This document shows, piece by piece, positions 4,564-24,531 of a DNA stretch of 51,921 nucleotides. Below the pieces are notes generated by a model, which did not search any database, was not told the DNA's origin, and worked only from the letters and a program-made list of their open reading frames with translations. The DNA comes from an uncultured Bacteroidia bacterium (GTDB lineage Bacteria > Bacteroidota > Bacteroidia > Bacteroidales > UBA932): NCBI GenBank assembly GCA_902791945.1, contig CADAXR010000005.1, forward strand, positions 1 to 51,921, given 5' to 3'. Position 1 is the first letter of the stretch; each line of letters opens with the position of its first letter. Made by a program: the position numbers and the translations under genes.

Positions 4564-4578
4564 TGTTGAACAATAATT

Positions 4579-4585: not shown

Positions 4586-4594
4586 AAACATATT

Positions 4595-4993: not shown

Positions 4994-5007
4994 TCTTTTT
5001 TCAATCA

Positions 5008-5046: not shown

Positions 5047-5061
5047 GCTAAAAAATGAGAA

Positions 5062-9793: not shown

Positions 9794-11584
9794 ATGGAAT
9801 ACACTTTCGATTCACTGAAAAAAGCGCTGGAAGATTTCAAAAAAAGCGTAACCAAGGACCTGGAAGAGATCCGCTCCCAGAAGGAAGAGGTCCGGAAGCT
9901 CAAGGAGGATATCTACAGCGCGATCAACGACGGCTACTTCATAAGGGATGACAAACGCATCGTTATCTCCGCCCCGGAAATTGTCATTGGCAATGTGGAC
10001 AGGGAAGGGATAATGCTGAAAGACGGCGGCGGAAGTGTCATACTTCGTTCCAACAACGTGTCTCTCGAAGGTGTCGGGGAAGCGGGTTCGGTGAAGACCA
10101 GGGCGGCGAGCATACGCTCGGTCGCGGCCGATCCCGGCGCTGACGGGCTTGAGGAAGTCGTAGGAGCGCTTTCGGAAGTCGTCTCACAGGGCCGTCACAT
10201 TGTGCTTGACGGAGTGGGTACCCTGGGTGTATTCCCCCAGCTCCCCAAATCATCCGGCAGCGGAGGCGTACGCATCCATGCCGACGGCAGTCTCGAGCTG
10301 GATGCAAGCATTTCAAGCGAGAGGCTCAAAAAGGACATCGACGACCGTGTCAAGGCCCTCGAAGACCAGAAAAAGGTCATCGAAAACGATGTGGATAACG
10401 GCATTAAGTCATTCGGTAACATCGCAAAGGCCATTCAGGACATCTGTGACCAGAATGAAAGCATTATCTCCGATCCTTTCACTCTGAGGACAGAAGCCGG
10501 AGCCCTCGAAGAACTGGCCAACAAGATGCAAATCCACTCAGCCACCTTGTTCCAGACCTACGGCGACACCTCAAGGTCAATCTCCCGCCTCGCAGAGATC
10601 AATCGCCAGATAACCAGTCTGAAGGATGCGAAGCAGGCAATAAAGAGCGGAGACGACTACTTGAAGAAGTCCACCGGAAGCATGGTGTCTATCGTTGGAG
10701 AAAGGATAGACCTCGCCTCCCGCGACGGCGACGGCAACATCCGCGACAACGAAGAAGCCGGAGTCGGAGTCCTTGCCAATGATGTCAAGGTCCTTTCCAT
10801 CGACAAGGACAACGCCCTTCAGAAAGAAGGGAAGCTGACAGTAAACGCCAGGACGGTGGAGATTTCAACCGTCAATGCCGCGGACCTCAAATACGACGAC
10901 AAGGGAAAGCTCACGGAAGCCAAGTACACTTCCGAAGGCGACATTCTCGTGAAGACCAAGACTCTGTCAGTCGAATCCGTGGATTCCGAGCTCAAAGACG
11001 ACAAGCTGGAGGAGAAGGCTCTCACAAAGGACAGTGCCATCACCATCCGCGCCGAGAAGCTGGACGTCTCCGCGACGGACACCGAAGGCAAGGCGACGGG
11101 TGAGATTGCACTCAACGCCAAGGAAGTCTCCGTCCGTTCGATGGATGTGGACAAGGAGAAAAGGACCGACGACAAGCTCGCCGAAGGCAGCACGATGCTC
11201 CTCCTTTCCGAGAAGATGTTCCTCGGAGCGAAGAAAAAGGACATCAAGTCCAAGAAACTCCAGGCGGTCAGCGAAGAGGTCGGCCTTTTCGCCGACAAGA
11301 CCCTCGAAGCCCAGCAGGACGACGGAAAGGCGGCCCTGCAGCTTTCCGGCGGCAAAGCGGCCCTCGGCGGCAGCGACACCGACGTCTTCGGCAAGACGAC
11401 CGTCAACAACTCCCTCGAAGCCAAGGGCGAGTTCAAGGCGCCGAAAGCTACTGTGGACCACGTGGAGGCCAAGAGCTCGTTCAAATCGTCCAACATCAGC
11501 GACGGCATCCCGGTGCCGCCCGCTCCTCCGTCCGGCAGCCTGAGCGCCAAGCTCAAGGCCGAGGACGCACCTGAAAAGAAGTAG
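9794..11584 (+). CDS. Beta-helix/coiled-coil spike-associated protein
   Basis: A 596-aa soluble protein of unrecognised family. Seen: an N-terminal coiled coil (about 5-45, LEDFKKSVTKDLEEIRSQKE), a beta region of alternating hydrophobics (RIVISAPEIVIGNVDREGIML, 56-76), a second coiled coil (about 175-205), a helical middle, and from about 330 onward short strand-turn repeats such as KLDVSATDTEGK, EIALNAKEVSVRSMDV and MLLLSEKMFLGA. It ends in a Pro-rich tail (GIPVPPAPPSGS). The strand repeats resemble VgrG/gp5-type spike helices. Sitting 4 bp after vgrG and 4 bp before the PAAR-like gene, it is probably a spike extension or adaptor; this is inferred from layout. Confidence 0.6.
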   Translation: MEYTFDSLKKALEDFKKSVTKDLEEIRSQKEEVRKLKEDIYSAINDGYFIRDDKRIVISAPEIVIGNVDREGIMLKDGGGSVILRSNNVSLEGVGEAGSVKTRAASIRSVAADPGADGLEEVVGALSEVVSQGRHIVLDGVGTLGVFPQLPKSSGSGGVRIHADGSLELDASISSERLKKDIDDRVKALEDQKKVIENDVDNGIKSFGNIAKAIQDICDQNESIISDPFTLRTEAGALEELANKMQIHSATLFQTYGDTSRSISRLAEINRQITSLKDAKQAIKSGDDYLKKSTGSMVSIVGERIDLASRDGDGNIRDNEEAGVGVLANDVKVLSIDKDNALQKEGKLTVNARTVEISTVNAADLKYDDKGKLTEAKYTSEGDILVKTKTLSVESVDSELKDDKLEEKALTKDSAITIRAEKLDVSATDTEGKATGEIALNAKEVSVRSMDVDKEKRTDDKLAEGSTMLLLSEKMFLGAKKKDIKSKKLQAVSEEVGLFADKTLEAQQDDGKAALQLSGGKAALGGSDTDVFGKTTVNNSLEAKGEFKAPKATVDHVEAKSSFKSSNISDGIPVPPAPPSGSLSAKLKAEDAPEKK

Positions 11585-11588
11585 CGCT

Positions 11589-11978
11589 ATGGGCAAGTTC
11601 GTGTGTGCAGGAGCAATGCTCAAATGCAGTTTCGGAATGGCGCCGTCATCATTGATGGTGATAGACCCGATGCGGGCCAAGGTCCAGAACAAGCCGATAG
11701 CCAACATCATGGACAACAAGCCGATGGCCAACATCATGCCCTTCGGCATGTGCCAGTCGCTGGCAAATCCGACGGTCGCATCGGCGACCGCCGCGGCGAT
11801 GGGGACCCTCACACCGATGCCATGCATCCCTGTCATTGCGGCGCCCTGGGCTCCGGGAGGACAGGAGATGATTTCAAATTTGCCCGCCCTGCTGGACAAC
11901 TGCAAATGCATTTGCAACTGGGGAGGCTGCATTGAGGTAACAATGCCCGGCAATGTCTGCCTGGCCGAAGGAAAGTAA
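11589..11978 (+). CDS. DUF4280 PAAR-like spike tip protein
   Basis: A 129-aa tip protein of the DUF4280 PAAR-like family, thought to sharpen the VgrG spike and bind effectors. Seen: the opening FVCAGAMLKCSFGMAPSSL, the NIM-NKPMANIMPFGMCQS segment, NPTVASATAAAMGTLTPMPC, then PWAPG and the C-terminal CKCICNWGGCIEVTMPGN. Conserved Cys residues may bind metal. Length is typical. It is 2 bp before the next gene, and its position after vgrG and the spike-type gene supports a role as the tip. Confidence 0.88.
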   Translation: MGKFVCAGAMLKCSFGMAPSSLMVIDPMRAKVQNKPIANIMDNKPMANIMPFGMCQSLANPTVASATAAAMGTLTPMPCIPVIAAPWAPGGQEMISNLPALLDNCKCICNWGGCIEVTMPGNVCLAEGK

Positions 11979-11980
11979 GG

Positions 11981-13300
11981 ATGAAACGCACGGGACTTGT
12001 CATACTTCTCGTACTCGCCTGCCTGCCGCTCGCAGCGCAGCAGATGAGCGTGGAGGAGTTTGCCAAAGTCCGTCGCATGCCGTGGAACAAAACGATTGAA
12101 GTGGACAAAGCCTCCGCCATCGTGGACTTCGTCACTGAAGAAAAAGGCTTCACTTTCCTTGCAAACGGGAAAGTGCAGGCCGAAGCGCAGGAAGGAGACG
12201 GGATGGTAACCGTGAAGTTCCCGAAGAAGACAAAGGCGATAGTAATCCGCCACCCGTCCTTCGGGCAATACACCTGGAAATCAGCCAAAAACAAGTCCCT
12301 TAAAGTCAACTCTCACTACAGGGCTCTGCTCTTCGCGTCAGACCCCACGGTCGATTTCAAGGCGCCTAAGCAGTGGGTGATCTTCAGGATGAGCCCTGCC
12401 AATACCCTCCTCACCGTGGATTCGCTCTCAAAGCAGGTCCGGAGCGACATCGTCGAGATGTATCTTCCTGTAGGAAAGCACAGTTACAGGGTCGAATCTC
12501 CGTTCTATGAGGCGGAAGAAGGTTCATTCGAGCTTTCGGACAGCGTCAGGGCGGACATCCCGGTCAGGCTTCAGCCCTTCTATTCCTACCTTACCGTTAA
12601 GCCGGAGTGGCGCGGACGGCGGGACCTCTACATCGACCTTGCCCGCATAAGCAAAAAAGAAGCGACAAGCTTCCGTATGCAGGAAGGCTGGCACAGGGTC
12701 AATGTCTTCAGGAAAGACAAATGCTGCTACGACTCGCTTCTTCTCGTCGGAAGGGCGGAAAAGAAACTTCTCACCATCGCGGACGCAGACCTTCATCCCC
12801 TCCCCCTCAAGCTTACGGATCCGATGCCTGTCGCCCCGCCCGATTCCGTCGCGCTCGCGGCCGTCAGGCTTACTCCCATCAAGATCACAGCCCACGACCC
12901 GCAGGCTGAGATCTGGGTTGACCTGGAGAAAAAAGCCGTCGGGGAGTGGGAAGATTCCCTCTCTCTGGGCATCCACTTCGTTGAAGCCAGGAAGGAAGGA
13001 GTGTCCTCCTCCCCTCTCCGTCTCCTTATCGAGGACAGTTTCCCGAAGGAAATAACCCTCGAAGCCGCCGGAGCCGGATACGGCCTCGTCAACATCCACT
13101 GCAATGTGGCAGGCGCGGACATCACCATAGACGGGAAAGATTACGGGCAGACCCCTAAAATCGTACGCCTTGAAGCTACCAGGAACTACAGGGTAACTCT
13201 CTCCAAGGACGGCTACAAGGCTGTCTCCCAGAAGATACCTCCGAGGGGCAACAACCTCACGGACGTTTATATGAAACTGAAAAAGAAAAAAAGGATATGA
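11981..13300 (+). CDS. Exported PEGA-domain protein of the T6SS cluster
   Basis: A 439-aa exported protein. Seen: an N-terminal signal peptide (MKRTGLVILLVLACLPLAAQ), several beta-rich modules, and a C-terminal PEGA domain (about 365-432: VNIHCNVAGADITIDGKDYGQTPKIVRLEATRNYRVTLSKDGY). PEGA domains are beta-sandwich modules found in surface and periplasmic proteins. No lipobox Cys follows the signal, so it is probably periplasmic. It overlaps the next gene by 4 bp (ATGA), which ties it to the T6SS operon. Because TssJ/L/M are absent, it is a candidate part of the periplasmic anchor; that is inference. Confidence 0.72.
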   Translation: MKRTGLVILLVLACLPLAAQQMSVEEFAKVRRMPWNKTIEVDKASAIVDFVTEEKGFTFLANGKVQAEAQEGDGMVTVKFPKKTKAIVIRHPSFGQYTWKSAKNKSLKVNSHYRALLFASDPTVDFKAPKQWVIFRMSPANTLLTVDSLSKQVRSDIVEMYLPVGKHSYRVESPFYEAEEGSFELSDSVRADIPVRLQPFYSYLTVKPEWRGRRDLYIDLARISKKEATSFRMQEGWHRVNVFRKDKCCYDSLLLVGRAEKKLLTIADADLHPLPLKLTDPMPVAPPDSVALAAVRLTPIKITAHDPQAEIWVDLEKKAVGEWEDSLSLGIHFVEARKEGVSSSPLRLLIEDSFPKEITLEAAGAGYGLVNIHCNVAGADITIDGKDYGQTPKIVRLEATRNYRVTLSKDGYKAVSQKIPPRGNNLTDVYMKLKKKKRI

Positions 13301-13989
13301 AAAAAAGTGTCGTCGGCATTCTGAACAATGCCCAGGGCAAGATGAGCGGCTATGTGGCCCTTCTGAACTACCGCTACTGCAACCTGAGCGTACTGGCGCA
13401 GCCTGAAGCGCTGCTCTGCGTATTCGTTGATGTGGACGGAGAAATGATGCCGATTGAGAAAGTCGCGAAGGCAAGGAATGCACCGGAAAGGGAGGACCAG
13501 TTTGAGATCTACCCCAACGACAAAGATTTGCTCATGCCTATAGTCAAGGCTGTCAACGATTTCCACTCGGAATACAAAATCGAGCTTGTCAATTTGGACG
13601 AGGACGACGACGAGGAGAAAATCATCCTTGCGACGGTCCCCCCCGTGGATGATGCCCGCTACAAATTCCTGAAAGAAGGTATAGGCGTGCTTGCCGACAT
13701 CTGCAAGGGTCAGATAGAAGCGACCTTCAACACCGCAACGGCGGAAATCGGGGTCAAGCTCGCAGGAGCCTCCGGTGAGGAAATAGATGAAGCGAAAGAC
13801 ATGCTTAAGCAGGTCCACGACAAGGCTACCGAGCTGGCAAAGAAGATTCAGGAGGCGAAGGAAGAAGAAATAGAGAAGGCATATAAAATATATAAGGAAG
13901 AGCAGGACAAGAAGAAGGAAGAGGAACAGAAAAAAGTGCAGGACGCCCAGGCGGCCACACAGATGAAAATGACGCCGGGCGATGAATAG
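13297..13989 (+). CDS. Cytoplasmic helical Lys/Glu-rich protein coupled to the E1 gene
   Basis: A 230-aa protein of no family I recognise. Seen: an N-terminal alpha/beta part (1-120; includes YVALLNYRYCNLSVLAQPEALLC and an acidic LDEDDDEEK), and a long helical C-terminal half (about 125-215) that becomes extremely rich in Lys and Glu (KIQEAKEEEIEKAYKIYKEE) before an unstructured tail. No signal or membrane segment. Its start overlaps the PEGA gene by 4 bp and its end overlaps the E1 gene by 8 bp, so all three are translated together. The Lys-rich helix could be a target of the adjacent conjugation enzymes or a scaffold for them; neither is shown. Confidence 0.6.
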   Translation: MKKSVVGILNNAQGKMSGYVALLNYRYCNLSVLAQPEALLCVFVDVDGEMMPIEKVAKARNAPEREDQFEIYPNDKDLLMPIVKAVNDFHSEYKIELVNLDEDDDEEKIILATVPPVDDARYKFLKEGIGVLADICKGQIEATFNTATAEIGVKLAGASGEEIDEAKDMLKQVHDKATELAKKIQEAKEEEIEKAYKIYKEEQDKKKEEEQKKVQDAQAATQMKMTPGDE

Positions 13990-15106
13990 TCCTTTCTGTG
14001 CGGACAGGATCGCCTCCGCGAATATAATGGTCGTGGGGTGCGGCGCCCTCGGCAACGAGGTCCTGAAAAACCTCGCCCTGATGGGAGCCGGACACGTCTG
14101 GGCGGTCGATTTCGACCGCGTGGAGACGGGGAACCTGAGCCGCAGCGTCCTTTTCAGGAAGGAGGACGCGCTGGAAGGACGATTCAAGGTGGAAGTGGCG
14201 GCGGAGCGCCTGAGAGGGATGAACCCCACCATAGAGGTGACTCCCGTCCGCGGCGACATCGCTTTCGATGTCGGCCTCGGGCTCATCAGGAAGATGGACG
14301 TGGTGATAGGATGCGTGGACAACCGCTGGGCCCGCTACTGCATCAACCGGCTCTGCATGAGGGCCGGGGTGCCGTGGGTCGACGGAGGAATAAGCTACCT
14401 GGAAGGCACTGTGAGGGTTTTTATCCCCGGCAAAAACTGTTACGCCTGCCAGCTGGGTCCCGAAGGGCTGAAAGACCTCGCGAGGAGGATGCCCTGCTCG
14501 GGAATCATACGCCGGGACGAGCAGGCCGGGAAGGCCCCGACGAGTTCCATCATAGCCTCCGTGACCGGAGCGGTTCAGGTGCAGGAAGCCCTGAAGCTCC
14601 TCCACCCGGAGCTTTTGGAAAGCGGAGAACTGACCTCCCTCTGCGGACGGATGTTCTGCTTTGAGGGTGAACATATGACTACGAAAGTCGTCTCGCTTGC
14701 CGCCTACGACGACGACTGCCCGGTCCACGACAGGTGGGAGCCGGTAAGGCCCACGGAAGTGACGGCAGAGACGACGGTGCAGGAGGCGCTTGAAGTGCTG
14801 AAAAAGGAGCTTGGCGCAAGCAAAATAACGATCCACCCCGGCGACTGCTTCGTGGACCGTGTTATAAGAAAAGACGGCGATGCATCGCTGGAAGTGATGC
14901 TGCCGGGACGGAATGTGGCGGAAAGGCTGGGAAAGGAGCCGGAGTGGAGGGGCATACCCTTCAGCGGCCTGTACCAGCACGAATACAGGGAAATTGACGA
15001 TAGTTTCCCCTACAGGTCCCTCACGCTGGGACAGCTGGGGATTCCCGAAAAGGAAGTGCTGCTTGTCAGCACCGGTTCGGGAGAAGAATATATTGAAATG
15101 AAATGA
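13982..15106 (+). CDS. E1-like (ThiF/UBA-type) activating enzyme with UBL-fold-like tail
   Basis: A 374-aa enzyme expected to adenylate the C-terminus of a ubiquitin-like protein and form a thioester with it. Seen: the nucleotide loop GCGALG at 19-24, VDFD at 42-45, N51 and R54, K69, and D113/N114, all at E1/MoeB active-site places; zinc ligands C153, C156, C246 and H249 (CYAC...CPVH); a candidate catalytic Cys C172 (RMPCSGI) upstream of the PTSSIIASVTGAVQVQEALKLL helix. Residues 255-374 form a separate domain whose end (TLGQLG 348-353, then EVLLV) resembles a ubiquitin fold, matching the place of the E2-recruiting UFD in eukaryotic E1s. It overlaps tssG by 4 bp. No thiamine or molybdopterin genes are nearby, arguing against a ThiF/MoeB role. 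Confidence 0.85.
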   Translation: MNSPFCADRIASANIMVVGCGALGNEVLKNLALMGAGHVWAVDFDRVETGNLSRSVLFRKEDALEGRFKVEVAAERLRGMNPTIEVTPVRGDIAFDVGLGLIRKMDVVIGCVDNRWARYCINRLCMRAGVPWVDGGISYLEGTVRVFIPGKNCYACQLGPEGLKDLARRMPCSGIIRRDEQAGKAPTSSIIASVTGAVQVQEALKLLHPELLESGELTSLCGRMFCFEGEHMTTKVVSLAAYDDDCPVHDRWEPVRPTEVTAETTVQEALEVLKKELGASKITIHPGDCFVDRVIRKDGDASLEVMLPGRNVAERLGKEPEWRGIPFSGLYQHEYREIDDSFPYRSLTLGQLGIPEKEVLLVSTGSGEEYIEMK

Positions 15107-15885
15107 GACAGTCTGTAACCAATACAGAGATCGGGGCTGAGATGCTGCTCTCCTTCCTCTATCCTGAGCTGGAGGACAAGTGGATCGTGCGCTATGACGG
15201 CACGTTCTACCGCAACTACAGCCACGACGCCATGGAGATAAGCCCGGAAGAGACCACGGTGTGGCTCTCCCGCGACGGTATCCTCGACCTGCTCCCGCAG
15301 GGTCTCCTCTCCATGGAGGACGAACTCAAGGACGGAGATGTCCTGGAAAAGCACAAGCAGCTGGACCTTCAGCGCCGGATCCTCTCCGAGGCGTTCCTCC
15401 CCTTTGATTCGGTGGAGTTCCGCCGCCGGCTGAAGGTGGAAAGGAATGTCTCCGAACTTCTCTCGGACAAGCTCTCCTACATCCTCCGGACCTTCTTCGG
15501 CTTCGACATCGATGCAGAGAAGAATCCTTACATAAGGGAATTCGCCGTCCTTCTGCCCTACGTGAGGCACTGGAGGGGCGATTTCGAGATGATACGCCGC
15601 CTGCTCTCCGCAATCTTCGGCTGCGAGGTCGTCCGACGCGACGGGCGCTACGCCGAGGAGGACAGCACGAGGGCCTGGATCCCCTCCGTGCGTTTCGAAC
15701 TTCTAGTCCCGGACCTTTCCGCAGAAGAATACAAGGCCCTGCACAGGGACATCCTCCCTCTCAGGGACTTCCTCGCGGAGTGGTTCATCCCCGCAGAAGT
15801 GCGCCTTGAGATACTTCTCAAGCAGCACTCCGTCTCCCCTGAACTTTGCAAGAACATGATACTCGACTATAACACAGAACTGTAA
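15103..15885 (+). CDS. tssG: T6SS baseplate protein TssG
   Basis: A 260-aa baseplate wedge protein, partner of TssF and TssE. Seen: EIGAEMLLSFLYPELEDKW at the N-terminus, FRRRLKVERNVSELLSDKLSYILRTFFGFDID in the middle, and the C-terminal VRFELLVPDLSAEEYKALHRDILPLRDFLAEWFIP, matching Bacteroidota TssG in length and helical layout. It overlaps the E1 gene by 4 bp (ATGA) and precedes tssK by 1 bp. The assignment leans on its neighbours, since TssG proteins of this phylum are divergent. Confidence 0.75.
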   Translation: MRQSVTNTEIGAEMLLSFLYPELEDKWIVRYDGTFYRNYSHDAMEISPEETTVWLSRDGILDLLPQGLLSMEDELKDGDVLEKHKQLDLQRRILSEAFLPFDSVEFRRRLKVERNVSELLSDKLSYILRTFFGFDIDAEKNPYIREFAVLLPYVRHWRGDFEMIRRLLSAIFGCEVVRRDGRYAEEDSTRAWIPSVRFELLVPDLSAEEYKALHRDILPLRDFLAEWFIPAEVRLEILLKQHSVSPELCKNMILDYNTEL

Positions 15886-15886
15886 T

Positions 15887-17026
15887 ATGGATATCGATGC
15901 TAGAATAAACTGGGCCCCCGGCATGGAGCTTTCAGCGCAGACGCTGAAAGAGCTTGACCGGAACCTGGATTTCCGCCAGCAGATGGCCGTCCGCGCCGCG
16001 ATGGGCGGAGAAAGGTTCGGACTTCTGCCCGGAGCGGCGTTCTCCGCCGCCGGCTCTTTTGTGAAAAACACGTTCGAGATAGCACGTTTCCAGTGCTCGG
16101 CGGTGCTTCCGTCAGGAAAGCTTATCAGCGCCGACGAGCCTGTCTCCGTCGCGATCCCGATGCTTTTCGGGAAGGAGTACTACCTCACCGTCGCTCCCGG
16201 CGGGGAGGACACGGCCTTCGAAAAGGAAGGCGTGCCGTATGTCCGCCCGCAGAAGAAATTCGCGATCCACTCGCTGGAAGAGATGGCCGGAGAGGACCTT
16301 TTCCCCGTGGCGAGGTTCAAGGTCTCCGACGGGATATTCTCCCGTGACGACGATTTCATCCCGCCGTGCCTGCTTCTAGGAAGCGACTCCCGCTTTGCCG
16401 ACTATGGTGCGGCATTCGCCGAAAAGCTGCAGGTCCTGTCATCCCACGCGAACCTTGCCGACGGAGAGGGCAAGCGCGCGCTCCTGCGCTATATGTTCAT
16501 CCTCAAGGGATACAGCTGGGACGGAGGCGTCAGCGAGTTCATTATGCTCACCCGCGAGATCGCCCAGGCCATCGACTACTACGTCGTGAAGCCCAACACC
16601 GAGAACCCGGTCGAGATTCCCGCCGCTTCCCGCTACGACATTCAGAAGTGGCTGCAGTGGCTCTCGGACTACCTCGGAGGGGCCGCGAGCATCCTCGACA
16701 CTGTGGTCCTGGAGGACGACTCCATAGACTACGAGGCACTTCTCGCCCAGGCCAAGGCCGAGCTTTACGAGAAACTCAATCCGGAGCTCCGCGCCGACCT
16801 CCTCCGCCAGATCAAGGAGGAGCTCCGCAGCGAACTCAGCGAGAAGCTCTCCGCGACCCTCAAGGCGTTCATCGAAGAAAAGATGAAGCCGGAGCTCCAC
16901 GACACCCTTTCGGGCGAGCTGGATCCTTCTCTGCACGACAAACTCTATCCGGAACTCTACGAGGCGCTTTACAACGCCCTTTATGTGCCGGAGGAGGAAG
17001 AGGAAGAGTTTTTCCCTATGATGTAG
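15887..17026 (+). CDS. tssK: T6SS baseplate protein TssK with repeat-like helical tail
   Basis: A 379-aa baseplate component that normally links the wedge to the membrane complex. Seen: an N-terminal shell-like region (INWAPGMELSAQTLKELDRNL; ending about 150), a helical middle (165-265), and an unusual C-terminus (291-367) built of near-repeats of the type EL-x3-L-x2-EL (ELYEKLNPEL, ELRSELSEKL, ELHDTLSGEL, DKLYPELYEAL), then an acidic tail of Glu before FFPMM. In classical T6SS the TssK C-terminal domain contacts TssL/TssM. Those are absent here, so this tail may dock onto a different membrane partner (inferred). Confidence 0.8.
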   Translation: MDIDARINWAPGMELSAQTLKELDRNLDFRQQMAVRAAMGGERFGLLPGAAFSAAGSFVKNTFEIARFQCSAVLPSGKLISADEPVSVAIPMLFGKEYYLTVAPGGEDTAFEKEGVPYVRPQKKFAIHSLEEMAGEDLFPVARFKVSDGIFSRDDDFIPPCLLLGSDSRFADYGAAFAEKLQVLSSHANLADGEGKRALLRYMFILKGYSWDGGVSEFIMLTREIAQAIDYYVVKPNTENPVEIPAASRYDIQKWLQWLSDYLGGAASILDTVVLEDDSIDYEALLAQAKAELYEKLNPELRADLLRQIKEELRSELSEKLSATLKAFIEEKMKPELHDTLSGELDPSLHDKLYPELYEALYNALYVPEEEEEEFFPMM

Positions 17027-17033
17027 CCTGATT

Positions 17034-17486
17034 ATGAGCAACCTGTCAATCCCCCTGCGTATAGGAAAAGGTCGACTGGACCGTACGGACAACACCAGGA
17101 AGTCCATAGACAGCGCCATCGCGCTGCTTATGGCCACCACGTGCGGCGACTCCCCCGCCGATCCGGAATACGGATTCATCTTCAACAATCTCAAGTTTGA
17201 GATTTTCAACGAGAGCGAGGGCGTGGTGTACGATTCCGCTCCGGAAGAATCCGGAGATTCGGACGGTCTTTACGACAAGAAACTTACAGGTTCTTCCAGC
17301 AACCTCAACACCTTTGCCGCCGAACTGAGGGAGAAGATAGAAATCTATGAAAAAAGACTCACTGACGTAAAAGTTTCCATGACCTATGCAAGGCAGGAAA
17401 GGAAAATCTACGTCACCGTCAAGGGAAAGATCATCTCCACGGGGAAAGGCTACCAGTATTCCACCGTCATCAATGTATGGAAGTAA
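17034..17486 (+). CDS. tssE: T6SS baseplate wedge protein TssE (gp25-like)
   Basis: A 150-aa gp25/TssE-family wedge protein that nucleates sheath assembly. Seen: the N-terminal IPLRIGKGRLDRTDNTRKSIDSAIALLMATTCGDSPADPEYGF, where gp25 proteins have the phage-type 'T..GE....P.fG' motif, and a C-terminal half with helix and strand (LREKIEIYEKRLTDVKVSMTYARQERKIYVTVKG). Normal length. It lies 7 bp after tssK and 6 bp before tssF, consistent with the tssK-E-F order. Confidence 0.82.
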   Translation: MSNLSIPLRIGKGRLDRTDNTRKSIDSAIALLMATTCGDSPADPEYGFIFNNLKFEIFNESEGVVYDSAPEESGDSDGLYDKKLTGSSSNLNTFAAELREKIEIYEKRLTDVKVSMTYARQERKIYVTVKGKIISTGKGYQYSTVINVWK

Positions 17487-17492
17487 GCTGAC

Positions 17493-19199
17493 ATGAAACA
17501 GATATCATTTGAAACACGCCAGAAGGCCGACGAACTGCTGAAAGAGGCCCGGGCCGTATGGAATCAGAGCGACCGGTCGGAAGACCTCGAGAACCTCGGA
17601 GACGATCCGGTGTTCTCGCTGCTCATGACGGCCCTGGCATACCAGTCCAACGAACTCGACAGCGAGATCGAACGTCTCAAAAGCGAGGTGCTCGAAGACT
17701 TCGCACGGCTTCTCGTACCCTATGAGATGGGCCACGCAGTCCCTGCCACGGCCGCCGTCCAGACGGCCCTGCAGGACGACATCGGAGAGATAGCCGTCGG
17801 CGAAGGGACAGCCTTCCAGCTGAAGGGAGGCCACTCCTTCCTTCCTCTTTTCGAATCAAGGGCGCTCAACGCGGAAATCCACTCCGTTACGCGCCTTGAC
17901 GGAAGAAGGTGGAAAGTCTCCCTGAAATTCAAGTTCCCAGTGAGCGACCTGTCGCAGTTTACCTTCGCGATAAAGGGAGTGGAATTCAAGGATGTAGCAG
18001 TGTCGATAAAGAACCGCCCGCTTCCCCTCGTGAAGCCCTGGCACTACTCGGAGCTTCCGCTCTCTCCGTTGTTCTCGCCCGAAGCGATGTCCTACAACCT
18101 CGGCCAGATCTGGAACACTTCGGTCCTCCCGATGGACCTTTTCGCCCGCCAGAACGTCCGTCTTTTCTGTATAAGAAAGCACTCTCCCGAAACATTTATC
18201 CCGTCGGAGACGGATCAGATCGACCTCGTATTCGAATTCTCGGGCATTTCCGACCGGTTCAGCTTCGACAAGGAAAATCTCGCGCTCAACGCGATCATCC
18301 TTGTAAACGCCAGCGTAGGAGAAGCCACGATCTCGGCACAGACGCCTATCGCCCGGCTTGTCGGAGGGCAGCCTAACCCCACGGACGAAGACATCTCCTC
18401 CCGCCAGTTCCTCCACCTGATCCGCCCGTCGGACAATCAGATCTACGGAGACACTGCGCTGGAGGTCAGGGGCGTTGCCGGAGACCGCTTCAACCAGGGA
18501 AGCCTCTACAAACTCCTCAACTGCATCATTACCAGATACCGTTCCGATTTCTATGCCTTCCGCCAGCTCAGCGGCGAGTCGGCCGGCAAGGCCGTCACCC
18601 AGCTGGAGTCGGCGATGGTGCAGCTCAAATCGGAGAGTGCGCAGAACGTCCTCAGAAACGTCTCCGGAATCTATCTTATGCCGCGCGGACCGCTCCAGCA
18701 GCAGAAGAAGGATTTCACCCTGACGGTGAAATACCTCACGACTGCCGGCACAGCCGTCAATTCTGCACTCGGAGGGCAGTTTGAAGCCCCCTCGGGCTTC
18801 CTGTCCGCCGGGACCTCGCTTATCTCCGCTCCCGTCCCCGGTATGGACGAGGTCAAGGACGAAGCCGCGGTCGGAAGCCTTCTGCGCTATTTCATGGTCA
18901 CAGGAGACCGGCTCGTAACCATGGCCGACATCAAGTTCTTCTGCCGCAAGCAGCTTATGGTGCTCTACGGCATCGAGAGCAGCCTCATCAGCCGCCTCGA
19001 AGTAGGAAGGCGTCTCGAGAGGGATTCGACGGGCTGCGGCTACGAGATTGTAGTGGACATCGCTCTCGTCGGCAACGCCTTCATCAAGCGTTCCTTCACG
19101 GACAGACTTCCGGGAGCCGAACTCCTCCTGCAGAAGATGGCCGAGGCAAGAAGCACCGGCATCTACCCGATTAAAGTGAATATCAATATAGAAGACTGA
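17493..19199 (+). CDS. tssF: T6SS baseplate protein TssF
   Basis: A 568-aa baseplate wedge protein, partner of TssG and TssE. Seen: the conserved N-terminal helical region ending in a Pro-rich stretch (DSEIERLKSEVLEDFARLLVPYEMGHAVPATAAVQ, about residues 50-85), a middle of beta domains (IKGVEFKDVAVSIKN; DQIDLVFEFSG), and a C-terminal region (RYFMVTGDRLVTMADIKFFCRKQL) that matches the family's C-terminal domain. Length is close to other family members. The ubiquitin-like gene begins 5 bp after its stop, so the conjugation genes are physically inside the baseplate operon. Confidence 0.86.
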   Translation: MKQISFETRQKADELLKEARAVWNQSDRSEDLENLGDDPVFSLLMTALAYQSNELDSEIERLKSEVLEDFARLLVPYEMGHAVPATAAVQTALQDDIGEIAVGEGTAFQLKGGHSFLPLFESRALNAEIHSVTRLDGRRWKVSLKFKFPVSDLSQFTFAIKGVEFKDVAVSIKNRPLPLVKPWHYSELPLSPLFSPEAMSYNLGQIWNTSVLPMDLFARQNVRLFCIRKHSPETFIPSETDQIDLVFEFSGISDRFSFDKENLALNAIILVNASVGEATISAQTPIARLVGGQPNPTDEDISSRQFLHLIRPSDNQIYGDTALEVRGVAGDRFNQGSLYKLLNCIITRYRSDFYAFRQLSGESAGKAVTQLESAMVQLKSESAQNVLRNVSGIYLMPRGPLQQQKKDFTLTVKYLTTAGTAVNSALGGQFEAPSGFLSAGTSLISAPVPGMDEVKDEAAVGSLLRYFMVTGDRLVTMADIKFFCRKQLMVLYGIESSLISRLEVGRRLERDSTGCGYEIVVDIALVGNAFIKRSFTDRLPGAELLLQKMAEARSTGIYPIKVNINIED

Positions 19200-19204
19200 C
19201 AGAT

Positions 19205-19522
19205 ATGGAAGATTTCTTTTTGGATCTCGTGTATAAAAACAAGAAGGTACGCTTCAGGGTGATGAATCCGGAAGCTCCCCTTGGCACGCTGATGAATAAC
19301 CTTCGCCACGCCACCGGCAGCGACGGAAGGCTCATCTTCGACTTCCCGTCCCTGGACGAGACCGGAGCCCCGATGGATTATTTCTTCGGAATGGAAGATC
19401 CGGATGTCCACGAGGTCAGGGTGCTGCGCCCCCGCATCGGACGCACCGACCAGACCCTCGCGGACTACAACGTCCATAACGGAGACACCCTGTTCCTCGT
19501 AGCTGATCCTTTCCCGGGTTAA
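19205..19522 (+). CDS. Ubiquitin-like protein with ubiquitin-type C-terminus
   Basis: A 105-aa beta-grasp protein expected to be activated by the E1 and passed to the E2. Seen: an N-terminal strand pair (FFLDLVYKNKKVRFRVM), a helix (LGTLMNNLRHATG), and a C-terminus (84-105) that aligns to ubiquitin 55-76 with no gap and 10 identities: TLADYN at 84-89 against TLSDYN, TLFLV at 95-99 against TLHLV, and a terminal Gly at 105. The end is a single Gly (FPG), so it may need no processing. An insert of about 25 residues (46-70) precedes the last strands. It shares one base with the E2 start (TAATG), coupling their translation. A YukD-like UBL is an alternative family name. Confidence 0.82.
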   Translation: MEDFFLDLVYKNKKVRFRVMNPEAPLGTLMNNLRHATGSDGRLIFDFPSLDETGAPMDYFFGMEDPDVHEVRVLRPRIGRTDQTLADYNVHNGDTLFLVADPFPG

Positions 19523-20103
19523 TGGAGAGCGGCAAATTCATACCGGAGCAGCTCAGCGGGCGCAACCGTCGCCTGCTGAACGAGTGGCGCCGGCTGGAGG
19601 AGCGCTTCAGCGGACGGCGGGACATCTCCGTGTCCGTCGAAGAGCGCAACGCCGCCGGCCTGCCCGTCCGCTACCGTGTGGATTACCGCATCCACAGTAT
19701 CTGCGGCGTCGGGCAGCCTGAGCGTCTCGGCGAGAAAGGCGTGGCCAACCCGCCGCTTTTCGCCGACGAGTTCAAGATGGACATTACGCTCCCGGCGGCC
19801 TACCCCTGCGTGGACGGAGCTCCGGTGTTCCGTTTTCTCACCAGCGGCGAGGACGGCACCCCGATTCCCCACCCCTGGCACCCTAACATCCGCTATTTCG
19901 GCGAAATGGCAGGGAGGGTGTGCCTCAACCAGGACGACACCTACACGGAGCTCGCCTGGGGCGTCGACAGGGTGGCGCAGTATCTCCGCTACGACGTCTA
20001 CCACGCCGTCTGCGAGCCGCCGTATCCGGAGGATATGCAGGTTGCCGCATGGGTGATCCGACAGGGAGAGCCCAACGAATGGATTTATTTTGACCAAGAC
20101 TGA
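19522..20103 (+). CDS. E2-like ubiquitin-conjugating enzyme with HPN and active-site Cys
   Basis: A 193-aa E2-fold protein expected to carry the ubiquitin-like protein as a thioester. Seen: the strand PAAYPCVDGAPVFRF (91-105) and WHPNIRYFGEM (119-129) with the HPN triad at 120-122, then GRVCLN with candidate catalytic C134, and W146 and PPYPEDMQVAAW (166-177), the equivalents of the conserved Trp and the 'PNPDDP..AA' loop of eukaryotic E2s. The HPN-to-Cys spacing of 12 is longer than in the shortest Ubc proteins, which suggests a small loop insertion. It is longer than a minimal E2 (about 150), with a charged N-terminal extension. It is located 2 bp before an exported protein gene. Confidence 0.85.
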   Translation: MESGKFIPEQLSGRNRRLLNEWRRLEERFSGRRDISVSVEERNAAGLPVRYRVDYRIHSICGVGQPERLGEKGVANPPLFADEFKMDITLPAAYPCVDGAPVFRFLTSGEDGTPIPHPWHPNIRYFGEMAGRVCLNQDDTYTELAWGVDRVAQYLRYDVYHAVCEPPYPEDMQVAAWVIRQGEPNEWIYFDQD

Positions 20104-20105
20104 TT

Positions 20106-21248
20106 ATGAGCAGAACACATATACTGAAACTTCTCCTGACGCTTCCGGTGCTGTGCCTTATGGCAGCTCCGATGAAGGCGCAAACCGTAAAGAACATTTC
20201 CGTCTCCGCCGGGACCTCCTACACGGATCACATAGCCTTGTCCGAGGACTCGAGGGACTCGGATATAATGGTAAAGTTCGTCTTCGACGAGGACAACAAC
20301 ACCCTTACGGTCAGCGCGCTGTCGTACAGGACGCTGTTCGTTTTCCGTGAGGCGTCCCGCTACAAGGCGGTCGTATCCCACAAAAACCTGATTCCGGACA
20401 GGCTGCCCTACGTGGCGGATGCCGACAAAGGCAGCAAGTTTCCCCTTTCCAAAGGGCTCGTGAAGTCTATCCCCTCCCCGAAGAAGAAATACATATTCAA
20501 CCGCTGGATTGAATATGAAGGGCTCCAGCCGGCCCCGGCCGACTACAAGATGGTCAACGACTACATCGAACAGACCTTCCAGATCCTTGGAGCAAGAAAT
20601 TCCGTCAGCGTGACCCTCCGGGACCTCCTGCTGCTTGAACCGATGAAAAAATCCAGATGGCAGCTGCTTCAGGGGCGTGACCTCAACGCCAGGTACCAGA
20701 TTCGTATCCAGCGCAACCCTTGCCTTGGCCGGGATGAGGAAATCGCCGAAGCGCAGGCTAACGTAGAGACCGTCAAGGCGGCCTACGAGAACTTTAATAA
20801 AATCTATGCAAGCGGCACGGTCCCCTCGATGGATGCTCTAAAGACCTACAAAGAGACAAAAGATGTACTTCTTACCCAGTTCACCGCCAAGCAGGGTCAG
20901 TCCCCGTGCCCGCTTCTACAGGAGGCGACGGATCAGTACAACCACTATGTAGATTCCATAGCGAACCATTTCTGCAGGATCGAGGCCCCGGAAGAGCCCG
21001 GGGAGGTCAAAACTCTGGACATCAAGATGATCTATGCCCAGGCCCGTCAGATAGACAAATCGGTAGCCCGCTACCTTGTCAGCAACGACGAACTCGAACG
21101 CTACGACCTCGTGACACAGTGCAACGAGATCATCAAGGACATCTCGGGCATTCTCTCAAGATACCCTTACGTCATGTCCGCAGAAGAAGAGAACGCAGTC
21201 AGAGTCTACAGACAGGCCGAGCAGTATTTCAAGAAAACGTGTAGATAG
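20106..21248 (+). CDS. Exported T6SS-cluster protein of unknown family
   Basis: A 380-aa protein with a Sec signal peptide (about 1-26, ending MKAQ) and no other membrane segment, so probably periplasmic. Seen: a beta-rich N-terminal half (27-200; ITLSVSxx-type strands such as FVFDEDNNTLTVSALSY and SVTLRDLLLL) and a helical C-terminal half (about 210-380). It has several Cys residues (at RNPCLG, SPCPL, HFCRI, TQCNE) that could form disulfides. It lies 2 bp after the E2 and 1 bp before the next gene. I cannot match it to TssP, TssQ or TssR; it is a candidate part of the envelope anchor that replaces TssJLM. Confidence 0.65.
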   Translation: MSRTHILKLLLTLPVLCLMAAPMKAQTVKNISVSAGTSYTDHIALSEDSRDSDIMVKFVFDEDNNTLTVSALSYRTLFVFREASRYKAVVSHKNLIPDRLPYVADADKGSKFPLSKGLVKSIPSPKKKYIFNRWIEYEGLQPAPADYKMVNDYIEQTFQILGARNSVSVTLRDLLLLEPMKKSRWQLLQGRDLNARYQIRIQRNPCLGRDEEIAEAQANVETVKAAYENFNKIYASGTVPSMDALKTYKETKDVLLTQFTAKQGQSPCPLLQEATDQYNHYVDSIANHFCRIEAPEEPGEVKTLDIKMIYAQARQIDKSVARYLVSNDELERYDLVTQCNEIIKDISGILSRYPYVMSAEEENAVRVYRQAEQYFKKTCR

Positions 21249-21249
21249 C

Positions 21250-22140
21250 ATGAGCGGAAGATTGGTGTCATACCTTGCGGCGGCGGGGCTCCTTCTGGCG
21301 GCTTCCACGGCGCTTTGCGCCCAGGACAAGCCCGCCTCGGCGGAGCACCTCGACGAGTCCATACGCCTGGAAATCCAGGGGCGCGTGGACCAGTATCTCG
21401 GGGAGATGAGGGGGGTATACGACGCCTCCGTGGCCAGCCTTCCCATTTCACCGAACAGCCAGATCACCGAAGGATACCTCCGGATGATAGAACGCCGGCT
21501 GAAGAACGCGGAAAGCAGCCGCCGCTCACTCGAGATCCGCTGGAACAACTACTTCCCTTCACAGCAGTGGGCCGTCGCCCTCGACGAGACGCTGATGGCG
21601 AGCGTGGAGAGCTTTGAAATGATGAAGCAGGATGCCACCGACTCGCTGGAAGTCCGGAAACAGATGCTGGCCTCACTGCAGGCCTTCCTGGATACCCAGA
21701 CGATGATCGCTAACCTGGACAGCACCTACAACACCCTTGGCAAGAGGGCTTTCGAACTTTCCCTTTCACCGAAGACGGCCCCTCTTCTCGAGAAGGAGAA
21801 ACAGAAGGAGCAGCTTATCTTCTCGGCCGTTCAGGAAAAATTCGACGCAGCCAAACAGGCCGAAGAATACCGGCTGGTCTCACGCGCCCGCATGGAGACT
21901 CTTGAAGACGCCTATGCCGCCCTCAAGAACAAGTCCGACGCAATCCAGGAGATGACATACAAGCCCCTCATCCAGAGGATAAAGGACTACCTGCTGGGCC
22001 TCGCCGCAGTCGCGGTCCTGCTTATGTTCCTGAGCATGCTCAGGGCAAGGATCAAGGCAATAAAGGATGCCCGCGAGGCCATGAAGAAATACAAGGATGC
22101 TTTAAAACTCAACGGTTCGGACGAGTATCCGACCATCTGA
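21250..22140 (+). CDS. Inner-membrane coiled-coil protein of the T6SS cluster
   Basis: A 296-aa protein with an N-terminal signal or anchor (1-24), a long mainly helical periplasmic region (about 30-240, with charged heptad-like stretches), and one transmembrane helix at about 247-264 (YLLGLAAVAVLLMFLSML). This is followed by a strongly positive cytoplasmic tail (RARIKAIKDAREAMKKYKDALK). By the positive-inside rule the helical domain faces the periplasm and the tail the cytoplasm. It could bridge the cytoplasmic baseplate to the periplasmic protein encoded just before it. No family recognised; TssO-like proteins have a similar layout, but I see no specific motif. Confidence 0.65.
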   Translation: MSGRLVSYLAAAGLLLAASTALCAQDKPASAEHLDESIRLEIQGRVDQYLGEMRGVYDASVASLPISPNSQITEGYLRMIERRLKNAESSRRSLEIRWNNYFPSQQWAVALDETLMASVESFEMMKQDATDSLEVRKQMLASLQAFLDTQTMIANLDSTYNTLGKRAFELSLSPKTAPLLEKEKQKEQLIFSAVQEKFDAAKQAEEYRLVSRARMETLEDAYAALKNKSDAIQEMTYKPLIQRIKDYLLGLAAVAVLLMFLSMLRARIKAIKDAREAMKKYKDALKLNGSDEYPTI

Positions 22141-22143
22141 TAT

Positions 22144-24531
22144 ATGACAAGGATGAAAAGAATTTTCAGATACCTGATGCCGCTTGCGGCGGCGCTGGCC
22201 CTTCAGGCCTGCCAGTCAGACTTCCTGTCCCACCTCGGAGTCAGCGACCCGAGCGCGATGTTCGAGGCTTCTTCCCTGCCCGGCGCCAAAGCCGGAGCGC
22301 AGGAAAAGATGGTGGTCAAGGAAATCGAATTCGCACCCGACCACAAGACGTTCTCCATATGGACGAGCGTCGTGGACGACATCGGTCCCTACTCACTGAC
22401 CGATTCGTCCACCGTCCGCATCGATGTCGAAGAATACGACGACGGCGTCCTGGCGGCCCGCCGTGTCCATCCACGCCTCGTTAAGGCCTGGAACACCGAG
22501 AGCGACCAGATCGCCGAGCTCGGCATCAAAGTGCTCGTGCTCGTGGATCTCTCCCTGCCGCAGGAGATTGTCGACAAGGAAAGGGAGGCTGTAGAAGAGA
22601 TGTTCACCGTTCTCAACCGCAGCAATCTCTTCCTGGCATTCATGAACGACAAACAGGTGTCCAAGACCTACGGTATTTCCGACTACATCATTAAGGAGTA
22701 CTTCAAGACAGGGTCTTCGAAAAAATACCTTTACCGCTCCATCTCCGCCAAAATGCAGGAGATGGCGGCAAGGCAGGGCCCCTGGGCCGACGCCTCGGAG
22801 GTCAAGCTCGTCGTTTTCTCCGACGGCCGCGTCTATGACGACGGCGACGTCCCGATGGACAGCGAGCATTTCAAGATAGAGAGCGACCTTCTCCACGCCG
22901 AGCTTCCCGACAGCGTCAGCGTCAGCTACGTCAACTTCAGCGTCACCCCTGCCGGCGCGGAGGCGGACGCCACGGTCACCGACCTCTTCACCTCCTTCTG
23001 CCAGTCCACCGGAGGGTCGTATTTCCCGAAATTCAACTGGACGAAGCTCGAAGAGACCATCCTCGGCAAACACGTGGATTCCATCATGTCCAACCGCTTC
23101 GATTTCGTCAATCCCGACAGGAAGGTCTACCGCGGCGACAACAACCAGCTCAAGCTGATCTTCCACAGCCTGGAAGAAAACCGCGAGATCGCCTCCGTCA
23201 CGGCGAATATCCGCGAAGGCTCGCTCTACAAGCCCATTATCGTCAACGGCGACTCCCTCAAGGGGGTTCTCATCGAGGGCACGAGCATCGGGCTCTTGAT
23301 TATCCTCCTGCTCTATCTGGTCTTCCAGTTCCTTGTGCCATATATCCGGTACAGGATATTCCTCCGCAAATACGTTGTCAGGCACACCGGGAGGGATATG
23401 GTGATCGGAGACGTCGCTGTAGCGGAGTCCTGCTACCTCTGCAAGGAGCCCTTTAAGGAAGGCGACGAGGTGGTGGTAAAGTGCGAACACTCGATGCACA
23501 AGTCCTGCTGGGATGAGAACGAGTACCACTGCCCCGAATACGGACGCCACTGCAAGGATGGCTCCCATTTCTACGACAGGGAGCACCTTGCCGACAAGAG
23601 GAACGCCCCGTTCTATATGAAATGGCTGCTGATGGGTGTCCTAGTTTCCGTCCTGGCCTGGATAGCGCTGTCCATCTGGACGAATTTCACGGAGAAACAC
23701 ATCCTCGAATACCTCATCCCCGTGGAGTACCTCAACGCGGACAAGAACGGCACGCACCTCAACCAGCTGCCGTCCTACGGTCTGTTCGTAGCCTTCTTCC
23801 TCACCCTCGGAATCGGGCTGATGTCCGTCAGGAACAAACATTTCCTGTCCCTTCTCGACATCTTCCTCAAATCGGTCGTCGCCGGTCTGGCCACCGCGCT
23901 GCTGTACCTGCTTGTCAGCCTGGCCTGCATAGGACTTCACCTTGAGTCAGTGAGTTTCATCCTGAACCTCATCCCCTGGATACTGTCGGCCTATCTGATA
24001 GCGCTCATTGGCACTGCCGGCAGCCGTATCAAACTCAAGAGGCACATCATTCTCATAGCCCTCGCGGCGTCGGTCCTGTCGATGTACCTGTGGTACTCCT
24101 GTTATATTATGATAGGTATAGACTTCCGCGTGCTGGTACTCTTCAGCATTATGATCTATGCTGTCGGAATCACTCTCGCCATCGCAGCGGCCGCACCGAA
24201 GTCGGAACACTACTTCCTGCACGCCCAGGGCGCGGTCAAGACCATGGACGTAGCCATCTACAAATGGTTCAGGGCCAATCCCAACGCCGTCGTCTCCATA
24301 GGCAAATCGGTGGACTGCTCGCTGCAGCTGTCCTGGGACCTCCAGAGCGACATAGCCCCCGTCCACGCCGAGATAACAATGAAAAAAGGCATACCACGCC
24401 TGACGGCCCTCGAAGAAGGCGTCACCTTCAATGGCAAGCCTCTCAAGGTAGACAAACAGGTCAGCCTCTACCACGGCACCACCTTCCGTATCGGCAAGAC
24501 GACCTTCACCTACGAGGAAAAAGATATCTAA
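22144..24531 (+). CDS. Polytopic membrane protein: periplasmic VWA-like, cytoplasmic RING-H2 and FHA
   Basis: A 795-aa protein and the probable E3-type ligase of the cluster. Seen: a signal with possible lipobox (LQAC23); a VWA-like domain (about 60-320) with DLSLP at 135-139 and VVFSDG at 223-228; TM1 about 377-400 followed by RYRIFLRK; a zinc site C430-x2-C433-x13-C447-x-H449-x2-H452-x2-C455-x7-C463-x6-C470, the RING-H2 pattern except that the last Cys pair is x6 apart instead of x2; six more membrane helices (about 492, 545, 575, 603, 634 and 661 onward); and an FHA domain (about 715-790; SIGKS, VHAEI with H741). With an N-terminal domain outside, TM1 puts RING in the cytoplasm, and the six later helices return the chain so FHA is also cytoplasmic. 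Positive loops follow TM1, TM3 and TM5, as this topology predicts. FHA suggests binding to a phosphothreonine partner. A start at 22153 is also possible. Confidence 0.8.
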   Translation: MTRMKRIFRYLMPLAAALALQACQSDFLSHLGVSDPSAMFEASSLPGAKAGAQEKMVVKEIEFAPDHKTFSIWTSVVDDIGPYSLTDSSTVRIDVEEYDDGVLAARRVHPRLVKAWNTESDQIAELGIKVLVLVDLSLPQEIVDKEREAVEEMFTVLNRSNLFLAFMNDKQVSKTYGISDYIIKEYFKTGSSKKYLYRSISAKMQEMAARQGPWADASEVKLVVFSDGRVYDDGDVPMDSEHFKIESDLLHAELPDSVSVSYVNFSVTPAGAEADATVTDLFTSFCQSTGGSYFPKFNWTKLEETILGKHVDSIMSNRFDFVNPDRKVYRGDNNQLKLIFHSLEENREIASVTANIREGSLYKPIIVNGDSLKGVLIEGTSIGLLIILLLYLVFQFLVPYIRYRIFLRKYVVRHTGRDMVIGDVAVAESCYLCKEPFKEGDEVVVKCEHSMHKSCWDENEYHCPEYGRHCKDGSHFYDREHLADKRNAPFYMKWLLMGVLVSVLAWIALSIWTNFTEKHILEYLIPVEYLNADKNGTHLNQLPSYGLFVAFFLTLGIGLMSVRNKHFLSLLDIFLKSVVAGLATALLYLLVSLACIGLHLESVSFILNLIPWILSAYLIALIGTAGSRIKLKRHIILIALAASVLSMYLWYSCYIMIGIDFRVLVLFSIMIYAVGITLAIAAAAPKSEHYFLHAQGAVKTMDVAIYKWFRANPNAVVSIGKSVDCSLQLSWDLQSDIAPVHAEITMKKGIPRLTALEEGVTFNGKPLKVDKQVSLYHGTTFRIGKTTFTYEEKDI

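Follow-up and report, generated by a model that had tools for sequence, protein, structure and literature searches.

Type VI secretion systems (T6SSs) are spring-loaded harpoons that many bacteria use against rivals. Ubiquitin-like chemistry is known in bacteria from Bil/Bub and from Cap2 of cyclic-oligonucleotide-based anti-phage signaling systems (CBASS), which work with E1 (activating) and E2 (conjugating) enzymes and, in Bil/Bub, a ubiquitin-like protein (UBL). So far the E1-E2-UBL sets of bacteria have mostly been linked with phage defense, and to our knowledge few of their targets have been identified. Here we describe a stretch of 51,921 nucleotides (hereafter the window; contig CADAXR010000005.1, assembly GCA_902791945.1) from an uncultured Bacteroidia bacterium of the Bacteroidales lineage UBA932, where genes for an E1, a UBL, an E2 and a RING protein lie among the baseplate genes of a T6SS. 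The set looks like a complete, eukaryote-style E1/UBL/E2/RING cascade within the T6SS of gut and rumen Bacteroidales. Unlike Bil/Bub and CBASS Cap2, the set of the window has a RING protein, is embedded in a T6SS and belongs to a clade where no JAB protease was seen.

The closest described machine is the Bacteroidota T6SSiii treated in passages of Bongiovanni 2024 (PMC10781749), which shares with the window the TssC and TssD families, ClpV, a gp25-like TssE, VgrG and TssF/G/K. These passages report the TssNQOPR complex, or part of it, in all of the study's 443 T6SSiii, with a von Willebrand factor A (vWA) domain in TssR and a polytopic TssN whose cytoplasmic domain is compared with the ubiquitin-like fold of EccD, features that resemble the vWA and polytopic parts encoded in the window. 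Unlike T6SSiii, the window genome gave no match to TssN, TssO or TssR, each of which was detected in other genomes by the same search, and has instead the E1, a free UBL, the E2 and a membrane protein with vWA, RING and forkhead-associated (FHA) domains. Operonic E1, E2, ubiquitin and RING genes are found in a prokaryote, Caldiarchaeum (PMC5654768), but the sections on that cascade describe a small RING protein and mention no secretion machine. A sequence-only reading of the same stretch knew of no described T6SS with all four parts, and no paper joining T6SS and UBL conjugation was found in the open-licence PubMed Central (PMC) literature searched with secretion and ubiquitin terms. Ubiquitin and ThiF are absent from the main text of Coyne 2016 (PMC4714493), and the relevant part of Iyer 2006 (PMC1779556) lists bacterial E1/E2/JAB operons with no T6SS among them.

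The source genome (G000 in our set; 2.57 Mb in 187 contigs, the window being contig C5) has its T6SS core genes all on the + strand, from 26 to 24531 of the window, in the order ClpV, TssB, TssC, four Hcp-like genes, VgrG, 9794, DUF4280, PEGA, a gene similar to ribosome recycling factor (RRF), E1, TssG, TssK, TssE, TssF, UBL, E2, 20106, 21250 and the RING protein (genes without a name are called by their start). TssC, TssD, ClpV, VgrG and a gp25-like TssE, the parts by which we recognized a T6SS, are all present, and the assignments of TssC and TssD (Hcp), which match the Bacteroidota T6SS models, are unambiguous. None of tssF, tssG and tssK exceeds its Pfam cut-off in the window, and their names rest on homology to relatives and on weak TssK matches. 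The arrangement is as the sequence-only reading had it: the E1-like gene overlaps tssG by 4 bp, the UBL gene starts 5 bp after tssF, the E2 gene overlaps the UBL stop by 1 bp, and the RING gene closes the run on the same strand. At the conjugation genes, neighbors overlap by 1-8 bp or stand 1-5 bp apart, within the 5 bp it had allowed for gaps.

We scanned 84,980 species genomes using an alignment of 16 E2 sequences and confirmed 106 relatives. The best 80 loci were kept (Bacteroidales or Bacteroidia titles), and family hidden Markov models (HMMs) were iterated on these loci together with L088 (genome G010) and L085 (G051). Over this whole set the HMMs found E1 in 77 loci, TssG in 76, TssK in 77, TssE in 78, TssF in 80, UBL in 81, E2 in 82, 20106 in 80, 21250 in 77 and the RING protein in 79. 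Among the 80 scan loci alone, UBL and E2 were present in 80 each, RING in 77, E1 in 75 and all four in 72, the remaining eight (five without E1, three without RING) being cut off on the side in question by the end of the contig; each of the 80 had one or more of TssE/F/G/K. UBL was followed by E2 in 80 cases, TssF by UBL in 78 and E1 by TssG in 75, which bears out the co-location with tssF and tssG that had been proposed as a check. The order E1-TssG-TssK-TssE-TssF-UBL-E2-20106-21250-RING is nearly fixed, while the positions of the spike and tube genes vary. The four-gene set is thus a conserved core of the T6SS operon, not a chance insertion.

The proteins of the set have also diverged along with the baseplate. 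In the 66 rows with all ten genes, the distances of E1, UBL, E2 and RING protein correlated with those of TssG/K/E/F at r 0.65-0.86, a level reached in 0/500 permutations for each of the 16 pairs; the baseplate proteins correlated among themselves at 0.85-0.91. This shows a shared history, part of which is common species descent. The linkage to the T6SS claimed at the outset therefore stands as co-inheritance with the baseplate genes and falls short of exclusivity, a homologous cassette being present in three genomes where no TssC was found; one outcome named beforehand as refuting, the four genes lying unlinked to a T6SS in relatives, thus holds in part. The distribution is patchy, with the E2 present in 2/37 genomes of the window's genus. 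A wider profile (A3) run on 395 genomes of the phylum returned three matches, one in the window genome and the others in two genomes that lack T6SS genes in the neighborhood, and a search with the E2 alone among 61 relatives likewise returned three: the window genome, G010 (with a T6SS) and G051 (without).

For the E2, the family gives firmer evidence than the single sequence. H120-P121-N122 and C134 are invariant in 83/83 proteins, a profile of 29 E2s matched 12 PDB sequences at E ≤ 0.01, all of them E2s (best 4e-5), and 666 of the 704 candidates in the protein database were relatives at E ≤ 0.001. The window E2 itself falls below the Pfam UQ_con cut-off, and its relative in L119 lies above it. 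The E1 is the sole ThiF-family match in the window genome at E ≤ 0.001, and its GxGxxG glycines, D45, N51, K69, Cys172 and the zinc ligands C153/C156/C246/H249 are invariant in 77/77 (window included). The adenylation site, the Cys at the catalytic position and the zinc CxxC...CxxH are therefore all present; alone they do not separate an E1 from MoeB/ThiF types, to which the Cys and zinc ligands are common. Against the PDB, the E1 profile matched UBA7 (2.7e-36, a sum over two matched stretches), UBA6, UBA2 (114 bits), UBA1, MoeB (108 bits), ThiF and MccB among others, with BubCD of Citrobacter a distant match (3.3e-12) far below MoeB and the eukaryotic E1s. The best NCBI family model was ThiF (4.2e-38). 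With UBA2 and MoeB nearly tied and ThiF the best NCBI model, the E1 is not clearly nearer to the eukaryotic E1s. PADLOC, run on the six proteins of the set, matched the E1 domain alone, to generic E1-E2 models.

The UBL ends in Gly as its very last residue in 81/81 relatives. The model built from a 33-sequence alignment has a predicted ubiquitin fold (predicted local distance difference test score, pLDDT, 92.8), which agrees with the beta-grasp fold expected earlier and places residue 105 on ubiquitin G76. With this predicted fold and a C-terminal Gly, the protein qualifies as a ubiquitin-like modifier. Its profile matched mostly ubiquitins through the TLSDYNIQKESTLHLV segment among the best 60 of 99 PDB matches listed, which also include a plexin and an RNase; values were 0.08-0.9 for natural single ubiquitins and 4e-4 for a designed variant, repeated domains giving the stronger ones. 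The tail ends PG, not GG. In deeper T6SS relatives it reads PIAG, VIAG, VIAG and PIAG, and in three sets that stand without a T6SS, all with JAB, it reads IAG followed by YLVV (G051), VPG followed by GK (G592) or ends at VPG (G498). Extra tail residues in two of these three JAB sets suggest that the T6SS-linked UBL ends naturally at the point where JAB would cut there. Among its lysines, K11 is kept in 78/82 and K13 in 76/82.

The RING protein comprises a vWA domain within aa 56-356, a transmembrane segment (TM), the RING at aa 428-470, six helices and an FHA domain at aa 690-792; it is predicted to be membrane-embedded, and the vWA and FHA folds are predicted well. In 77 proteins the ligands C430, C433, C447, H449, H452, C455 and C470 are invariant and C463 is kept in 76, so that the earlier call of a RING-H2-type membrane protein at the end of the operon found support in all eight zinc ligands. 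The Prok-RING_1 score of the window protein is 21.5 bits against a curated cut-off of 29.1, and the sole PDB match of the profile was the RNF126 RING (0.0027). The vWA metal-site motif DxSxS (aa 120-145) is kept in the stand-alone relatives and altered in the aligned window-clade rows and in G424. A 21250-type gene and the vWA-RING gene are joined in one reading frame in 6/77 loci (L011, L012, L024, L076, L079 and L083), which supports a physical complex. Taken together, the expected families and catalytic residues of a complete four-part set are present, as first proposed, with weak single-sequence scores and firmer family profiles. Near-invariant lysines are few in the 12 operon proteins scanned: TssE K82 (77/79) and K83 (79/79), TssK K196 (76/77) and 21250 K245 (71/72), along with several in the RING protein; lysine conservation by itself does not show acceptor status.

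Table 1. Genes of the T6SS operon in the window, with the evidence for each assignment.
Feature	Position	Strand	Evidence
ClpV-type AAA+ ATPase	26..2260	+	AAA_2 8e-58, AAA_lid_9, ClpB_D2-small
TssB (sheath)	2288..2749	+	Position and homology to relatives' TssB; family HMM finds TssB beside TssC in other T6SS loci
TssC (sheath)	2774..4138	+	PF17541 1.8e-101
TssD/Hcp tube protein 1	4171..4563	+	PF17642 5.4e-28
TssD/Hcp tube protein 2	4595..4993	+	PF17642 5.3e-22
TssD/Hcp-like protein 3	5062..5496	+	PF17642 3.3e-6, above cut-off
Hcp-like protein 4	5484..5999	+	Position only: after Hcp3 in relatives; no Pfam match
VgrG spike	6010..9789	+	Phage_base_V 1.4e-15; Phage_GPD 1.2e-4 (below cut-off)
Conserved T6SS-linked protein	9794..11584	+	Present in 49 loci
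DUF4280 protein	11589..11978	+	PF14107 1.3e-32
PEGA-domain protein	11981..13300	+	PF08308 1.1e-15
Protein distantly similar to ribosome recycling factor	13297..13989	+	PF01765 1.3e-8; recurs in 53 related loci
E1-like activating enzyme	13982..15106	+	ThiF E=3.6e-51
TssG (baseplate)	15103..15885	+	Homologous to gene between E1 and TssK in L121/L122
TssK (baseplate)	15887..17026	+	Weak: VasE/TssK 0.0064; TssK 5y0e 0.026
TssE, gp25-like baseplate wedge	17034..17486	+	PF04965 7.7e-9
TssF (baseplate)	17493..19199	+	L121 homolog above Pfam TssF cut-off (8.1e-7)
Ubiquitin-like protein (UBL), 105 aa, C-terminal ...DPFPG	19205..19522	+	Sub-threshold Rad60-SLD 0.0011
E2-like conjugating enzyme	19522..20103	+	Sub-threshold UQ_con 0.0016; HPN 120-122 and Cys134
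Conserved unit member, signal-like N-terminal hydrophobic stretch (by eye)	20106..21248	+	In 79/80 scan loci; after E2 in 79 neighbor pairs
Conserved unit member, C-terminal hydrophobic stretch (by eye)	21250..22140	+	In 76/80 scan loci
vWA-TM-RING-TM-FHA membrane protein, putative E3 (ligase)	22144..24531	+	Prok-RING_1 2e-4, zf-RING_2 5e-4, both below curated cut-offs

Among the remaining genes of Table 1, the TssB of the window has as its own Pfam match only an irrelevant and sub-threshold one, and a further TssG homolog, in L108, gives a sub-threshold Pfam TssG match. Four Hcp-like genes stand in tandem at 4171-5999, the fourth too diverged for Pfam. The DUF4280 product (11589..11978) is presumably a PAAR-like tip.

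How the set relates to the known anchor proteins was compared across the order, where TssC was found in 18/393 genomes. The E2 is present in five of these 18 (G000, G082, G214, G278 and G424), and TssN was above cut-off in seven, TssO in eight and TssR in four, together covering eight genomes. No genome of the 18 had both the E2 and any of TssN/O/R, and five had neither (G283, G294, G306, G309 and G367; in G306 and G309 the TssC contig is short or has the gene at its edge). Among seven more E2-positive genomes, chosen for their E2 (G010 and G429-G434), six were without TssN/O/R above cut-off, the TssN match of 9e-4 in G010 and G432 being below it. The seventh, G429 (Bacteroides mediterraneensis An793), has all three, on a different contig from the E2; its published TssD expression in chicken caecum can be assigned to neither of its two T6SS clusters. 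TssN, TssO or TssR stood on the same contig as the E2 set in no genome read. Because the RING protein and both its partners are encoded where TssN, TssO and TssR are missing, they probably also form the anchor.

The history of the set was followed in a TssC tree of 22 rows, in which the long branches of G278, G424, G214, G306 and G294 make single placements unsure. On one side of a branch with 100/100 support lie five other T6SSs, and on the other all the conjugation T6SSs together with G294, the only member there that lacks the set. G294 is sister to G424, which has it, at 99/97. Strict monophyly of the E2-positive rows was rejected (p 4.4e-7), the fewest changes being two, and the tree fits one gain and one loss of the set. 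A JAB protein (H[ST]HPG...[ST]xxD) accompanies the set in the deeper T6SSs G082, G424 and G214, in L084 and in the stand-alone sets; it is above a Pfam cut-off in G214, G051 and G498 and sub-threshold in G424 and G082. The H[ST]HPG motif was not found in L005-L083 or L088 (flanks up to 10 kb), nor was Prok-JAB above cut-off in the window genome. The remark that such sets usually have a JAB protease is thus true of the deeper T6SS branches and the stand-alone sets and of no locus in the window's clade.

The stand-alone operons of G051, G498 and G592, genomes where no TssC was found, carry a homologous E1-UBL-E2-JAB-vWA/RING/FHA cassette. They differ from the window in that no T6SS genes were seen beside them, JAB is present and five of the eight aligned RING ligands are lost in G498 and G592. 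As the same cassette is found in three genomes without TssC, it was probably recruited by the T6SS. Read most simply, a T6SS would have captured an E1-UBL-E2-JAB-RING cassette, and JAB would then have been lost in the window's clade as the tail changed from AG to PG. We take these operons to be probably the kind behind Pfam Prok-RING_1, and Burroughs 2011 may describe them. In G498 (L119 5821-15635) the operon adjoins genes for an nSTAND1 NTPase and an ion channel; its G592 counterpart is L120, and in both the RING equivalent, with the lost ligands, reads DPIT, reminiscent of a U-box. In G051 (L085 1548-18540, L086 4924-5790) the cassette is followed by SrfB (PF07520 1e-213) and an SrfC-like protein (PF10139 1.8e-139), with a second JAB gene further on.

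The ubiquitin-like set was not found in G294. Around the T6SS genes of this genome (L131, L107, L130 and L125), and on their strand, stand four genes for Ser/Thr kinases, of which one has FHA, together with genes for a PP2C phosphatase and several FHA proteins. A close relative thus carries another protein-modification module around its T6SS. Kinases also lie near T6SS genes on the same contig in G283, G367, G309 and the E2-positive G424. The remaining 11 E2-positive genomes and the eight with TssN/O/R either have none or have them on another contig or at a distance of hundreds of kb. T6SSs of this branch may thus tend to come with a module for protein modification, by conjugation or by phosphorylation; with few and partly fragmented genomes this is suggestive only. 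A threonine phosphorylation pathway, PpkA/PppA/Fha1, with a PpkA vWA and FHA parts, reportedly ties protein modification to the H1-T6SS of Pseudomonas aeruginosa. The window differs from it in having UBL conjugation genes, and it is in G294 that a kinase/PP2C/FHA set appears.

We think it probable, if not strongly so, that the conserved E1/UBL/E2/RING set of the baseplate operon couples the UBL to components of this machine at the inner membrane, likely as a switch for its anchoring and assembly. The E1 would adenylate the UBL glycine, take the UBL on Cys172 and pass it to E2 Cys134, and the RING domain, on the cytoplasmic face, would bring the charged E2 to a nearby acceptor. The nearest candidates would be the baseplate proteins or the envelope proteins themselves; the vWA domain, predicted to be periplasmic, would sense signals or contact the envelope, and phosphopeptides would dock on the FHA domain. 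Because the UBL is produced in its mature form, and JAB was not seen near the set in any locus of the window's clade, the tag would be long-lived or structural, not quickly removed. A more far-reaching proposal, which we regard as possible yet doubtful, is a second kind of Bacteroidota T6SS where the vWA-RING-FHA ligase and its two partners would replace the TssNQOPR anchor, and a free UBL joined covalently to baseplate or anchor subunits would replace the ubiquitin-like docking domain of TssN, conjugation building or arming the weapon.

Several observations weigh against an anchoring switch of this sort. The UBL profile had no match to the cytoplasmic domain of TssN, and G429 (L066) has two T6SS clusters, on contigs C17 and C23, one with the UBL set and the other with TssN/O/R. 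Judged by NCBI family models and single-domain scores, the E1 stands at equal distance from ThiF/MoeB and the eukaryotic E1s. Its C-terminal domain, a candidate ubiquitin-fold domain (UFD), gave two irrelevant PDB matches, and a further comparison gave a probability of 3.7%. The last ligand pair of the RING is C463-x6-C470, not C-x2-C as in RING-H2 (C3H2C3); a section of PMC11354881 describes prokaryotic RINGs with a longer insertion in this pair. Because the E2 search patterns were derived from T6SS-linked E2s, the 80 loci over-represent the linkage. The cassettes in the three TssC-less genomes imply that the enzymes can work without a T6SS, G294 keeps its T6SS genes without the set, which is therefore not indispensable in every member, and G424, with both the UBL set and kinases, makes clear that the two modules are not strict alternatives.

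The cascade could instead tag the secreted parts (Hcp, VgrG, the DUF4280 tip or effectors) for tube loading or for action in the recipient. Spike and tube genes do share the operon, with several TssD paralogs, but the fixed block consists of baseplate and envelope genes while spike and tube positions vary, and the putative E3 is predicted to be membrane-embedded; we consider this reading rather unlikely. Conjugation in the service of quality control or turnover, the UBL marking misassembled or contracted T6SS particles for removal, would suit the ClpV gene of the operon and the turnover role that UBLs with E1/E2/E3 often have in eukaryotes. This seems quite improbable to us: no UBL-binding protease was identified in the unit, though none was specifically searched for, and JAB, expected for tag recycling, was not seen near the set in the window's clade.

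That the set is an anti-phage module riding with the T6SS is suggested by its stand-alone relatives, which resemble conflict systems and adjoin an nSTAND1 NTPase and ion channel (G498) or SrfB and an SrfC-like protein (G051). The fixed interdigitation with baseplate genes across many genera, the co-divergence with the baseplate proteins and the PADLOC result, limited to the E1 domain and generic models, make it very unlikely. A last alternative would do without conjugation altogether: E1 and UBL would form a pair of the sulfur-carrier type, the E2 would be non-catalytic and the RING structural. The ThiF model, the near-equal MoeB and UBA2 scores per domain, E1 Cys and zinc ligands that are common to MoeB/ThiF types, and the PG end of the UBL would all fit; a non-catalytic role, however, would not require the E2 Cys134 and HPN kept in 83/83 or RING ligands kept in 76-77/77, and we hold this to be most unlikely of all.

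What looks like a complete cascade, RING protein included, belongs here to a machine with about a dozen known core parts. Its substrates can therefore be sought directly in cultured commensals, the cluster being present in Xylanibacter ruminicola D31d, Mediterranea massiliensis and Caecibacteroides pullorum. The related machines offer a comparison between ubiquitin-like tagging, in the window's clade, and Ser/Thr phosphorylation, in G294. The finding also suggests what may anchor the Bacteroidota T6SSs that are without TssN, TssO and TssR.

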